Position numbers and translations under genes: made by a program. From contig JAOAJN010000006.1 of the NCBI GenBank assembly GCA_026414165.1, positions 31,350 through 95,349 on the forward strand: a stretch of DNA of 64,000 nt, read 5' to 3'. How positions within the stretch are numbered: position 1 is the stretch's first letter; each line of letters starts with the position of its first letter. Below, piece after piece: positions 32,951 through 37,325 of the stretch. Under the pieces are notes generated by a model. It worked only from the letters and a program-made list of their open reading frames with translations, made no database searches and was not told the origin of the DNA. This DNA comes from Candidatus Methanomethylicaceae archaeon (GTDB taxonomy: Archaea > Thermoproteota > Methanomethylicia > Methanomethylicales > Methanomethylicaceae).

Positions 32951-33157
32951 GTGGGCAGAGTTGCTGTATTAACGGCTTTTGCCGTAATAGGCTACTTCCT
33001 TGGAGTGGCTGCATATTACATGGGCAAGAACCTTACACCATGGCTCGAGAAGATCTCGCCTTTCCTTGTAAATGCGGATTGGTTCATAGCGGGAATAATA
33101 GGCGCAATTGTTACAGTTATAGTGGTCGTGGTCTGGTCTTATACAACAAAAAGTTAA
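32951..33157 (+). CDS. Small two-helix membrane protein
   Basis: 68 aa with a GTG start behind GAGGAGG, a good ribosome binding site about six bases upstream. Two membrane segments ('AVLTAFAVIGYFLGVAAYYMG' and 'WFIAGIIGAIVTVIVVVVWSY') are separated by a loop of about 20 residues. A TATA-like TTTATATT lies near 32907. Unknown function. It overlaps the end of the convergent TrmB-like gene by 4 bases. Confidence 0.65.
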   Translation: MGRVAVLTAFAVIGYFLGVAAYYMGKNLTPWLEKISPFLVNADWFIAGIIGAIVTVIVVVVWSYTTKS

Positions 33158-34482
33158 GTGGGTATTGTGCTTTTTTCTGTCAGCTTTATTCCCTCTTTAC
33201 TCTTTGGTTTACTAATTAGTTTGTATTGAATGAGCCAATGGTTCTCTTCTGAATTGAATATGCTATCAACCCTTACTGCGTCAAAGCCAAATACATCAAG
33301 CAGACCCAAGAGATATAGGCCCCATATAGATGGAGGGATATCAAAGCCCCTTTCATATGCCATTTTATAATAGGTCGAGAGATTTCCTGAGAGTTCGCAT
33401 GTCAGTATGTGTGGCTCAGCATCATAGGTGAGTTTAGATTCCACACCCTCGTATAATAGATATAGGGATCCCAAGAGGTTTAAGGATTCTTGCAGATCTG
33501 GGAGGATTAGCGAGTACTTTGTGGAGTTTATAATTCTGCTCCCAAGCTCACCCAAGAAGGAGATCATCTTCTTTCCCATCTTTACGGAAAGGGCGTCCAT
33601 CAGGACAAAGAAGAAGATCGGCTCAAGTGGATTAGTTCTGGTGCCTGCAAAATATTCTCTTAGTTGAGGGTCGTGGATGAGCGGGAGCATTGTAGGCAGG
33701 TCAACTGCAATGCTCCAGTCTATCCCGGATATTAGAACGTCAAGGGAGGCGCAAGCCTCCACTCCGGTGAAGTATTCTGCCATTAGGCACTTAGTTTTTT
33801 TATCGTTAAGAGTTATTCGTTTGAATACCAAGAGGTCACGACCATCGGCAAGTATCAAGTTGTTTTTGGGAGAGAATGGAATGTATTTTATATCTATGAG
33901 ATCCGAAAACCTACTGAGCAGGACAGAATCATCCTGTCCAGCCTCCATCATAATTTGAATTTGAATGTCGGACTTTGAAACCGAGTTCAGTGAGTCGTAA
34001 CAGTTATAAAATATGACTTCCAGCCCCTCATGGTTGAGCAATAGGCGGATGTCCTTCGAAGCGTTCGTTAAGATCTCTTTAATCCGCTTAATAGTCTCTT
34101 CGTCGCTTCTTGTGATCCAGTATTTTCGCTCCTCCAGTTTTTCTGATGATGATGATGTTTCGTGTATCTTCCTCAATTCCATTATGGCGCTCTTCATGAG
34201 CTTCAAGTCTTTTTCCAATTCCTTTATCGGATCCACAAGGGCGTTTATGGGAATGAGCGCCTTTGCTTTTTGTGGTTTGCCTGGAAAGAGTGTGACGAGC
34301 TGGCGCTTTTCTAAATTCTTAAGGACAGGATAAACCTTCGTTCTTGGAACCTTACTATGGGCAGCGATCTCTTTTATACCGCAGGCCCCTCTCTGTAAAA
34401 GGGTGAGGTAGACTCTAGATTCGTACTCAGTTAGACCAAACTTGGTCAATGCCTGAATCAAGTCTTTGGGTTGTAACTCCAA
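33154..34482 (-). CDS. TrmB-family transcriptional regulator
   Basis: 442 aa. The N-terminal winged helix (residues 8-75) reads 'FGLTEYESRVYLTLLQRGA' and 'SKVPRTKVYPVLKNLEKRQL', typical of TrmB. A helical linker follows (about 85-115) and then a PLD-like middle domain (about 135-270). The C-terminal 150 residues are not the sugar-binding domain of TrmB itself and I do not recognise them; they may bind a ligand. The gene is divergent from the cdvB-type gene. A long inverted repeat lies in the shared promoter region, so it may control itself and the division genes. Confidence 0.85.
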   Translation of the reverse strand: MELQPKDLIQALTKFGLTEYESRVYLTLLQRGACGIKEIAAHSKVPRTKVYPVLKNLEKRQLVTLFPGKPQKAKALIPINALVDPIKELEKDLKLMKSAIMELRKIHETSSSSEKLEERKYWITRSDEETIKRIKEILTNASKDIRLLLNHEGLEVIFYNCYDSLNSVSKSDIQIQIMMEAGQDDSVLLSRFSDLIDIKYIPFSPKNNLILADGRDLLVFKRITLNDKKTKCLMAEYFTGVEACASLDVLISGIDWSIAVDLPTMLPLIHDPQLREYFAGTRTNPLEPIFFFVLMDALSVKMGKKMISFLGELGSRIINSTKYSLILPDLQESLNLLGSLYLLYEGVESKLTYDAEPHILTCELSGNLSTYYKMAYERGFDIPPSIWGLYLLGLLDVFGFDAVRVDSIFNSEENHWLIQYKLISKPKSKEGIKLTEKSTIPT

Positions 34483-34486
34483 TAAC

Positions 34487-34533
34487 TGTCACCGGAGTAA
34501 CAGGCTCTGCGGTTACACTATACTCTGGTCACA
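34487..34533. promoter_or_regulatory. Inverted repeat between trmB-like and cdvB-like genes (candidate operator)
   Basis: TGTCACCGGAGTA at 34487-34499 and TACTCTGGTCACA at 34521-34533 are inverted copies that match at 11 of 13 positions, centred 34 bases apart. One copy sits at the probable transcript start of the TrmB-like gene, and the other is seven bases upstream of the cdvB-type TATA box. A related half-site, GAGTGGTGACCG, is at about 34565-34576. Confidence 0.5.
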
Positions 34534-34539
34534 CGAGCC

Positions 34540-34547
34540 TTATAAAG
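34540..34547 (+). promoter_or_regulatory. TATA box of the cdv cluster
   Basis: TTATAAAG is a near-perfect archaeal TATA box. It predicts a transcript start near 34568, with a short leader that includes a GGTGA ribosome binding site before the GTG start at 34580. Confidence 0.65.
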
Positions 34548-34579
34548 TTTGGGATTTTACCGTAGAGTGGTGACCGAAA

Positions 34580-35218
34580 GTGAGCAAATTTGTGGAGAAA
34601 TGGGAGGCTAAAGAGACTCCCAGCCTAGGAACTAGAGTTAAAGAGACCATCAGACCACCAGGTCCACTTAAGCCACGCTTGGACGCGGCCATTAGATCGA
34701 TACAACTCCAGATACAGAAATTGGAAATTGCCAACCAGAGGTTCCAAGAAAGGGACAGGGTGATGTTCAGTAAAGTCGTGGATGCTTACTCAAAACATGA
34801 TATGGATCATGCTAAAATTTATGCTAATGAGTTGGCCGAAATCAGAAAGATGTCAAAGATGTTGATGCAAGCCAAGATGGCTCTCGAGCAGATAGTGATG
34901 AGGCTTAGCACTGTTACAGAGCTTGGCGACATTGTGGTTACACTTGCACCAGCGATGGGCGTAATTAAGAGTGTAAAAACTGGAATCTCAACGCTGTTGC
35001 CGGAGGCAGAGAAGGAGTTCAGCGACATTAGCACAACGCTCAGCAGCATACTAGTAGATGCAGGACAGAGTGCAGGACTCAGCCTCAACTTCGATGCCGC
35101 TAACGAGGATGCAATGAAGATCATCAACGAGGCAGCGGTCGTAGCCGAGCAGAAAGTGAGAGAGAAGTTCCCAGAGTTGCCAACAGGTGTGGCCGCAGGA
35201 GAGAAAACAGGATTCTAG
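34580..35218 (+). CDS. ESCRT-III-like CdvB paralogue (short form, without winged helix)
   Basis: 212 aa with a GTG start preceded by GGTGA. It has the Snf7-type basic helical hairpin ('LKPRLDAAIRSIQLQIQKLE', 'RDRVMFSKVVDAYSKHDMDH') and 'AKIYANELAEIRKMSKMLMQAKMALEQIV', closely parallel to the CdvB gene that follows. It ends after the helical core with 'FPELPTGVAAGEKTGF' and has no winged helix. Such short paralogues (CdvB1/B2-type) build the contractile division ring in Sulfolobales with CdvB. It is followed by T8, which may terminate part of the transcripts. Confidence 0.88.
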   Translation: MSKFVEKWEAKETPSLGTRVKETIRPPGPLKPRLDAAIRSIQLQIQKLEIANQRFQERDRVMFSKVVDAYSKHDMDHAKIYANELAEIRKMSKMLMQAKMALEQIVMRLSTVTELGDIVVTLAPAMGVIKSVKTGISTLLPEAEKEFSDISTTLSSILVDAGQSAGLSLNFDAANEDAMKIINEAAVVAEQKVREKFPELPTGVAAGEKTGF

Positions 35219-35347: not shown

Positions 35348-36157
35348 TTGTTTAAGAGATTTTTTAAGCGGGCTCCACCTCTCAAGGACGCCCTAAATGA
35401 TGCAATAGTTAGGCTTACTCAACAGAAGAGAAAACTGGAGATCCTAAATTTAAAGATAAAAAGCAGAGAGAAAGCCCTCTTTGATTCAGTCACCATGGCA
35501 ATAGAGAGGAAGGATCCAGAGAGGGCAAAGATATATGCCAACGAATTGGCAGAGGTTAAGAAGGTTCAGAAGAACGTTAGGAAGAGCATCCTAGTTTTGG
35601 AACAATTGGTAATTAGGATGGAGACGCTAAGGGAGTTCGGAACGGCTTTTGCTCAGCTAAAACCAACCCTGGAGGTAGTTAAGCAGGTCTCTGACCAGCT
35701 GTCAGAGGTAATGCCAGAGGTTTCCAACGAGCTCTCTAACATTGGAAGTGTTTTAGGGGATGCCCTGATAGGCGTAAACATAAACTTGATGCAGGAGGAA
35801 CTCCTCATCAAGATGCCAAACTGCGACAAAATCATTGAAGAGGCAGCCACATATCTTAGCGAAAAGATTGAAAATGAATTGCCAGTACCGCCTATCGGTG
35901 TAAGGATGGCGGTTGCTATAGGGGGCGAAGGTGACGAAGAGTTTTTGGTTTCAAGTAACGGAATCATAGATCCAGATGAGGCAGTTCTTTCATACTTGAA
36001 GGAGAATCAAGGTAGATTGAATATAAAAGAATGTAGCAGACTATTTCAAATTCCAGAGGAAGAAATACCCAAAATTGTGGAAAGCTTATCAAGGAAGGGA
36101 TTGATTAAGATAATGATAGTTGAGGGAATAACACATGGCGTTCGCAGCAGCAAATGA
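35348..36157 (+). CDS. cdvB: ESCRT-III-like division protein CdvB
   Basis: 269 aa with a TTG start behind GAGGTGG. The helical ESCRT-III core spans about residues 8-180, with 'AKIYANELAEVKKVQKNVRKSILVLEQLVIRM' shared with the preceding paralogue. An acidic linker follows ('GGEGDEEFLVSSNG'), and a C-terminal winged helix spans about 205-262 ('LSYLKENQGRLNIKECSRLF', 'ESLSRKGLIKI'). In Sulfolobus the winged helix binds CdvA. The gene overlaps cdvC by 23 bases. It should polymerise at the division site and be remodelled by CdvC. No cdvA-like gene is visible in the window. Confidence 0.9.
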   Translation: MFKRFFKRAPPLKDALNDAIVRLTQQKRKLEILNLKIKSREKALFDSVTMAIERKDPERAKIYANELAEVKKVQKNVRKSILVLEQLVIRMETLREFGTAFAQLKPTLEVVKQVSDQLSEVMPEVSNELSNIGSVLGDALIGVNINLMQEELLIKMPNCDKIIEEAATYLSEKIENELPVPPIGVRMAVAIGGEGDEEFLVSSNGIIDPDEAVLSYLKENQGRLNIKECSRLFQIPEEEIPKIVESLSRKGLIKIMIVEGITHGVRSSK

Positions 36158-37325
36158 GATAGAGGCAGCGGCTATAAAGTATGCCAAGGAAGCGACAAGA
36201 CTGGATCAGCAGGGTTCCAAGGGTCTTGCCATCACCTATTACCAGAAGGCCATCGACGCATTCCTGAAGCTTGTGAATCTCTACCCAAATTATGAGCTGA
36301 ACAAAGTGTACATTCAGCGAGCCATGATGTACCAAGAAAGAATAAAGGTCTTACAGGTCGGGGCGGCGGCTGAGACGCCCGAGGAGACATTGGAGATAAA
36401 GCCCATAAATAAAGAGGTTGAGCAGAAGACAGAAGGCGCAGCGCCCCAGAGAAAGGCAGCTTATGAGGACCTTTTGATAGTGGAAAAGCCAAATGTTAGA
36501 TGGGAAGACGTGTCAGGGCTTGAAGAAACTAAAAAGGCGCTCAAGGAGGCCATAATATACCCATCAAAAAGACCAGATCTCTTTCCATTAGGCTTTCCGA
36601 GGGGGATACTGCTCTACGGGCCGCCTGGATGCGGTAAGACTCTTACTGCCGCGGCTGTGGCTACAGAGATAGACGCAGCATTCTATTCTGTCGATGCGGC
36701 ATCAATTATGTCAAAATGGTTGGGTGAGGCTGAGAAGAATGTGGCTAAGTTGTTCAGGTCAGCTAGAGAGTCTGCCCTCAGTCAAGGTGCCGCGATCATA
36801 TTTATTGACGAGATAGACTCCCTATTGGGAGTGCGTTACAACGAGGTCGGAGGGGAGGTCAGGGTTCGAAACCAATTCCTAAAGGAAATGGACGGGATAC
36901 TTGACAAGGGCAAGAGTTGGCCACTCTACGTCATTGGTGCTACAAATAAGCCATGGGCCCTGGATTGGGCATTCATAAGACGGTTCCAGAAGAGGATTTA
37001 TGTGCCTGTTCCCGACTTCGAGACGCGGCTCAAGATCTACCAGTTGTACACACAGAAACTTGTCATGGAAGGGGTTGACCTGAACGAAGTGGCCAGACTC
37101 TCAGAAGGTTATTCGGGCAGCGATATCAGGGACATTTGTCAGGCTGTGCAGCTCAGGGTTGTCAGTGAACTTTTCGAGTCGGGGAGGATCTCTGACATGA
37201 AAGCCAAACCTCGACCAATTACAATGGATGATTTCAGATACGTAATTTCGAGACGGAAACCCAGCATCACTCAGGAAATGATAAAGGCATACGAAGTCTG
37301 GGCTGAAAACTTCAAGGCGACATGA
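36135..37325 (+). CDS. cdvC: Vps4-like AAA ATPase CdvC
   Basis: 396 aa. An N-terminal MIT domain (about residues 1-80) is followed by a linker and a single AAA domain: Walker A 'LLYGPPGCGKT' (near 160), Walker B 'IIFIDEIDSLLG' (near 221), sensor and arginine finger 'GATNKPWALDWAFIRRF', and a Vps4-like C-terminal helix ('VISRRKPSITQEMIKAYEVW'). It disassembles or remodels ESCRT-III filaments during division. The long overlap with cdvB implies coupled translation. Confidence 0.95.
   Translation: MAFAAANEIEAAAIKYAKEATRLDQQGSKGLAITYYQKAIDAFLKLVNLYPNYELNKVYIQRAMMYQERIKVLQVGAAAETPEETLEIKPINKEVEQKTEGAAPQRKAAYEDLLIVEKPNVRWEDVSGLEETKKALKEAIIYPSKRPDLFPLGFPRGILLYGPPGCGKTLTAAAVATEIDAAFYSVDAASIMSKWLGEAEKNVAKLFRSARESALSQGAAIIFIDEIDSLLGVRYNEVGGEVRVRNQFLKEMDGILDKGKSWPLYVIGATNKPWALDWAFIRRFQKRIYVPVPDFETRLKIYQLYTQKLVMEGVDLNEVARLSEGYSGSDIRDICQAVQLRVVSELFESGRISDMKAKPRPITMDDFRYVISRRKPSITQEMIKAYEVWAENFKAT

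Follow-up and report, generated by a model that had tools for sequence, protein, structure and literature searches.

The intergenic region between a trmB-family regulator gene and a group of ESCRT-III (cdv) cell-division genes is best explained as an operator at which a dedicated TrmB-family protein regulates ESCRT-III genes and which has been passed down within Methanomethylicota and Nitrososphaeria, a reading to which we assign a probability of about 0.8 from sequence comparisons. We infer that the binder of the ordered half-sites found in this region is the TrmB protein itself. The presence of regulator and sites across a large part of the phylum points to an old, dedicated cell-division switch. 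Little is known of how archaea that divide with ESCRT-III switch their division genes on, and the prediction covers the regulator, its exact sites and its target genes for marine and soil ammonia oxidizers of the Nitrosopumilus and Nitrososphaera types as well as for Methanomethylicota.

The locus and its half-site array

The window, i.e., the whole 64-kb stretch of DNA that was analysed, belongs to a methanogen-related archaeon, a member of Candidatus Methanomethylicota (Verstraetearchaeota). The genes are arranged in the order class-V aminotransferase (minus strand), trmB (minus strand), intergenic region, cdvB, second cdvB, cdvC/Vps4, DHH protein and RimK-like protein. The trmB-family gene (nt 33,154–34,482, minus strand) has a TTG start and codes for a protein of 442 aa, the closest named relatives of which are in the Methanomethylicota MAGs WYZ-LMO10 and JZ-2_bin_200 (94% identity). 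On the plus strand, the first cdvB paralog (nt 34,580–35,218; 212 aa, GTG start) is CdvB1/B2-like (NCBIfam cell_div_CdvB1_B2, E 9.5e-59), and the second (nt 35,348–36,157; 269 aa) carries a C-terminal extension and matches both CdvB1_B2 (E 3.1e-30) and CdvB (E 3.3e-26); neither gene reaches an equivalog cut-off, which leaves their assignment to a paralog class provisional. They are followed by a Vps4-type AAA ATPase gene, cdvC (nt 36,135–37,325, plus strand; 396 aa, NCBIfam CdvC E 4.6e-154), with MIT and Vps4_C domains. The combination of cdvB-type ESCRT-III genes with a cdvC carrying an MIT domain identifies the locus as a Cdv (ESCRT-III) division operon.

Five GTNAC half-sites lie in and next to the intergenic region. 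Half-sites A (TGTAAC, nt 34,472–34,477, within trmB codons 2–4) and B (TGTCAC, nt 34,487–34,492) point forward, while C (GTAACA, nt 34,497–34,502), D (GTTACA, nt 34,512–34,517) and E (GTCACA, nt 34,528–34,533) point backward. A to D make up an array (nt 34,472–34,517) with a spacing of 15-10-15 that is mirror-symmetric about the B/C dyad. This core dyad, TGTCAC-CGGA-GTAACA (nt 34,487–34,502), is the closest of the dyads and has the family consensus TGTNAC-YNNR-GTNACA. The extra, promoter-proximal half-site E is present in Methanomethylicota loci and ends 5–6 nt before the TATA box of the cdvB operon. Within 76 bp GTNAC occurs five times where 0.7 would be expected, which makes this the densest and only such cluster in the window.

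The TATA box, CTTATAAA (nt 34,539–34,546, plus strand), is conserved in the alignment at a near-fixed distance from the array, and its position right beside the second arm of an inverted repeat agrees with the preliminary description of this region. That account had also placed a trmB promoter between the two arms, where no separate conserved trmB promoter was found; no TATA box other than CTTATAAA is conserved in the intergenic region, and this one, being near-symmetric, could serve trmB too. A promoter scan of the sigma-70 type carries no weight in an archaeon. The sequence GGTGACC (nt 34,569–34,575, plus strand), formerly regarded as a third half-site, did not hold up as one: it is not conserved as a half-site, and genera of the WYZ-LMO11 and SKYB85 types have GGGTGA or GGTGAG instead. 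Since 4 nt separate it from the GTG start that follows (nt 34,580), it is better read as the Shine-Dalgarno sequence of cdvB. GGTGA is contained in archaeal Shine-Dalgarno sequences.

Conservation in two classes and association with cdvB and TrmB

An alignment was made of 19 Methanomethylicota loci, 18 from the family and one from another family of the order. The array was alignable in all 19, while the flanks and trmB diverge, with TrmB protein identities between genera of about 46–59%. TrmB homologs are divergent to cdvB throughout the family and in the other family of the order. With a profile built from all operators, each Methanomethylicales genome gave a single strong site, after which the scores dropped to chance level. 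Other exact dyads in the host genome, such as that before the EF-1alpha gene (L206), were considered as part of a wider regulon and rejected, being neither conserved nor above chance-level scores. Exact or near-exact dyads also occur in one similar context, TGTAACTGAAGTAACAATAAGAAATAGATAC (L043, L187, L191, L333, L353); these are probably chance matches within conserved coding sequence and could mislead simple motif scans. At the unlinked cdvB paralogs of Methanomethylicota the operator is absent. These genes (L224–L231; G000:C37:123712-124302 in the host genome) have a different conserved promoter in common, CTCGAAACTCTTTTTAACTACTTTCACC, without GTNAC half-sites, and are therefore probably under separate control.

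The best TrmB matches outside the class are from Nitrosopumilaceae, likewise encoded divergently from an ESCRT-III gene together with cdvC, and their TrmB–cdvB intergenic region contains TGTAAC...TGTTACTGCGGTTAC...GTGACA. When 84,980 species genomes were scanned with a TrmB alignment as the sole query and the best 80 loci were taken, 76 of these TrmB relatives had a divergent cdvB and/or cdvC neighbour; the cdv-linked loci include Nitrosopumilus, Nitrosotenuis, Nitrosotalea, Nitrososphaera and hot-spring Nitrososphaeria. Of the 66 loci with a cdvB neighbour, 62 have the dyad at 9–10 of 10 positions (the exceptions being L081, L083, L093 and L124), against 0 of the 10 with cdvC only; the information content of the dyads is inflated by their selection as best matches. 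The outer half-sites, which were not picked by the dyad match, are conserved at 15–16 nt, so that the spacing in Nitrososphaeria (15/16-10-15/16) is that of Methanomethylicota.

A profile restricted to the Nitrososphaeria operators matched a single locus in the window (nt 34,471–34,518, E 3.9e-7; other strand 7e-6), with no further match there up to E 10. It matched 10 of the 10 other Methanomethylicota loci tried, and gave no match upstream of the cdvB genes covered from other classes, at the unlinked Methanomethylicota cdvB paralogs or at the cdvB of a Nitrosopumilaceae genome without TrmB. The operator is also lacking from the regions before cdvB in the phylum's other classes (L157–L165, L168–L185). 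In the Thaumarchaeota isolate APA_bin_56 (L126, TrmB–cdvB), the half-site is expanded to a 15-bp tandem array, TGTGTCACTATGGTA, of about seven copies.

Within Nitrososphaeria the site accompanies cdvB even where this gene is not adjacent to trmB. Both of the exact dyads found genome-wide in two Nitrososphaera genomes are upstream of cdvB, one linked to TrmB and one unlinked. Nitrosopumilaceae with the regulator have a second site upstream of an unlinked cdvB (21/21 genomes), comprising most or all of half-sites A–D with a TATA box close behind, and in most genomes a TTTAAA TATA box comes after the arrangement A-16-B-10-C-15-D. Where TrmB is beside cdvC only, the site is missing there and half-sites are found upstream of cdvB elsewhere (8/8), either as TGTAAC and GTTACA 25 nt apart, which is the A–C distance, or as a longer part of the array (L238–L245). 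Some Nitrosopumilaceae cdvB paralogs without the GTNAC array (L272, L273, L277, L278) share another upstream motif, (G)TTAGCTAAATTTA, and in linked intergenic regions (L021–L029) trmB is closely preceded by a related sequence, AGCTAAATTC...TTTACAC; these motifs are possibly the sites of a second division-gene regulator.

The operator also follows the regulator. In a sample of 40 genomes scored for the operator and the long TrmB protein, it was found in all 24 with TrmB (E 6e-10 to 0.016), and the 16 genomes without TrmB gave chance-level matches only (E 0.04 or worse), a co-occurrence that is partly phylogenetic because the TrmB-less genomes are mostly from other classes. More informative is the one TrmB loss seen inside Nitrosopumilaceae, a complete 1.2-Mb genome (G133), the cdvB of which (L265) has no site. 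A PRTKxY recognition helix is present in every cdv-linked TrmB tabulated, compared with 2 of the 25 remaining TrmB-family proteins. The maximum-likelihood tree places the cdv-linked proteins in two clades that lie near each other, one from Methanomethylicota and one from Nitrososphaeria, with one unlinked row inside; they do not form a single clean clade (2 label changes, long branches), and the deep branching is not resolved. The preliminary description had proposed phylogenetic footprinting of the intergenic region, and among relatives the region tracks cdvB genes as well as TrmB. Its central proposal, that a TrmB-family regulator and the ESCRT-III genes share a palindromic region through which it controls them, is favoured by a conservation that reaches far beyond the genus and by the fixed spacing of the half-sites.

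Several other explanations of the region were weighed. The preliminary description had centred on a 13-base inverted repeat, and its arms, TGTCACCGGAGTA (nt 34,487–34,499) and TACTCTGGTCACA (nt 34,521–34,533), do exist with 11/13 complementary positions, a quality that is matched by 1% of the sequences obtained when the 98-bp region is shuffled by dinucleotides. They are not the conserved unit, since they pair B with E and skip the conserved half-sites C and D. That the functional operator consists of these arms together with GGTGACC is thus very improbable: E is not general outside Methanomethylicota, and in place of GGTGACC other GGTGA-type sequences precede the start codon. It is scarcely credible that the conservation has nothing to do with transcription control and reflects coding overlap, RNA structure or chance. 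Isolated GTNAC dyads are indeed common in the host genome (5 for the pattern, 6 for the reversed control), and the overlap of half-site A with trmB codons 2–4 means that its conservation in Methanomethylicota may in part be coding. The same spacing, however, recurs in the Nitrososphaeria arrays, which are non-coding, and at unlinked cdvB promoters, and the middle base of the half-site varies freely while GT.AC is fixed. A further alternative, which we regard as unlikely, accepts a real operator that controls cdvB but has another conserved transcription factor as its binder, TrmB being a mere neighbour or co-target. It would account for a site that follows cdvB rather than TrmB, absent beside TrmB genes with cdvC only and present at unlinked cdvB, and the regulators of division already known from archaea, CdrS and aCcr1, belong to the RHH proteins (PMC7617429). 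Against it stand the genome-wide co-occurrence with TrmB, including the absence of both in G133, the divergent adjacency retained in two classes, the conserved TrmB recognition helix, and the similar form of TrmB-family operators such as TATCAC-N5-GTGATA (PMC4158304).

The regulator and its proposed action

The structure model of the window protein comprises a wHTH (recognition helix VPRTKVYPVL), a coiled coil, a PLD-like domain and a separate C-terminal domain, in an arrangement that is not reliable at a whole-protein pTM of 0.40. The wHTH belongs to the TrmB family (PF01978, 66.7 bits against a cut-off of 25.6, E 1.6e-18). The TrmB sensor family PF11495 matches the first half of its domain only and falls below the cut-off in the window protein (18.6 against 22.2 bits; best relative E 4.7e-8), and the equivalogs of sugar-sensing TrmB/TrmBL1, NF040851 and NF047390, score far short of theirs (66.2 against 600 and 64.2 against 650 bits). 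PDB profile searches matched TrmBL2 and TrmB by sequence in the N-terminal half only, and the PLD-like first half of the effector domain matches the TrmB structures 3qph and 2f5t (Foldseek). The C-terminal 188 residues (nt 33,157–33,720, minus strand) match no Pfam family; modelled alone (pTM 0.73), they resemble TRAPP Bet3-like proteins, H-NOX domains and the MopR aromatic sensor in weak but consistent matches (E about 1e-3 to 2e-2), giving a TRAPP/H-NOX/V4R-like prediction. With a C-terminal half of a different predicted fold and such matches, a sensor function of this domain is plausible and sugar-sensing is unsupported. The metabolic ligand formerly suggested for the protein is not supported by PF11495 or by the predicted fold; a ligand and a link to metabolism are possible.

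As a mechanism, we propose that at least two TrmB dimers would occupy the ordered half-sites (A forward, 15, B forward, 10, C backward, 15, D backward), plus E in the window lineage. In most lineages, where the TATA box is readable, the last half-site ends about 5–7 nt before it, at the upstream BRE edge. TrmBL1 of Pyrococcus activates when bound upstream of BRE/TATA and represses when bound downstream (PMC4706686), and by this positional rule the regulator is probably a promoter-proximal activator, which might raise cdvB–cdvC expression by aiding TBP/TFB binding. The opposite sign, repression of cdvB by occlusion of BRE/TATA, is a variant of the same explanation rather than exclusive of it, and we give it somewhat less than even odds. 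The closeness of the last half-site to the TATA box and BRE edge would suit it, as would the precedent of Pyrococcus TrmB repressing malE from a BRE/TATA site (PMC4158304), but the array extends upstream and not over or downstream of the TATA box, and TrmBL1 sites upstream of BRE/TATA activated two of three templates (PMC4706686). Besides the proposed activation of cdvB, half-sites over the trmB start could confer autorepression in the window lineage, a weaker suggestion made because half-site A lies in trmB codons 2–4 and the only conserved TATA box facing trmB is the near-symmetric one of cdvB. The C-terminal domain, at about residues 285–425, could sense a signal. In its widest form, which we put forward tentatively and consider rather doubtful as a whole, the proposal is of a phylum-deep division factor with one or two ESCRT-III target promoters per genome, the sensor of which couples division in Methanomethylicota and ammonia-oxidizing archaea to a small-molecule or redox/gas signal.

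Comparison with known regulators

TrmB-family regulators and Cdv division are each known; as far as the literature searched goes, their pairing as a dedicated regulon has not been described. No relevant paper on TrmB with Cdv/ESCRT-III was found in this search of papers available without subscription, and a study of Cdv gene clusters went no further than to note that one cdvB is near cdvC in Thaumarchaeota (PMC8970359). Of the known systems, TrmBL1/Tgr of Thermococcales (PMC4158304) resembles the one proposed here in having a TrmB-family wHTH and a palindromic site with a GTGA-type half-site. It differs in its operator, the TGM (TATCAC-N5-GTGATA), whereas the sites at the ESCRT-III genes are TGTNAC-N4-GTNACA arrays, with GTNAC half-sites, a 4-bp spacer and outer half-sites at a fixed 15/16 nt. 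The targets here are ESCRT-III genes rather than sugar metabolism, one or two clear ones in each genome where TrmBL1 has dozens, and the window protein has another C-terminal domain. With TrmB of Pyrococcus and Thermococcus it shares the wHTH, the coiled coil and the PLD-like first half of the effector domain, but that regulator acts on mal genes through the operator TACT-N3-AGTA, and in the window protein no sugar-binding second half is recognised. TrmBL2 (PDB 5bpd) matches the N-terminal half best, in structure as in sequence, yet it is a chromatin protein of 264 aa, compared with 442 aa for the window protein with its one-site operator. Parallels in function are aCcr1 (Saccharolobus, cdvA) and CdrS (Haloferax, ftsZ), named in a 2024 review as transcription factors on division genes (PMC7617429). 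Like the proposed regulator, they are archaeal transcription factors aimed at division genes, but they are ribbon-helix-helix proteins of an unrelated fold and have other target genes.
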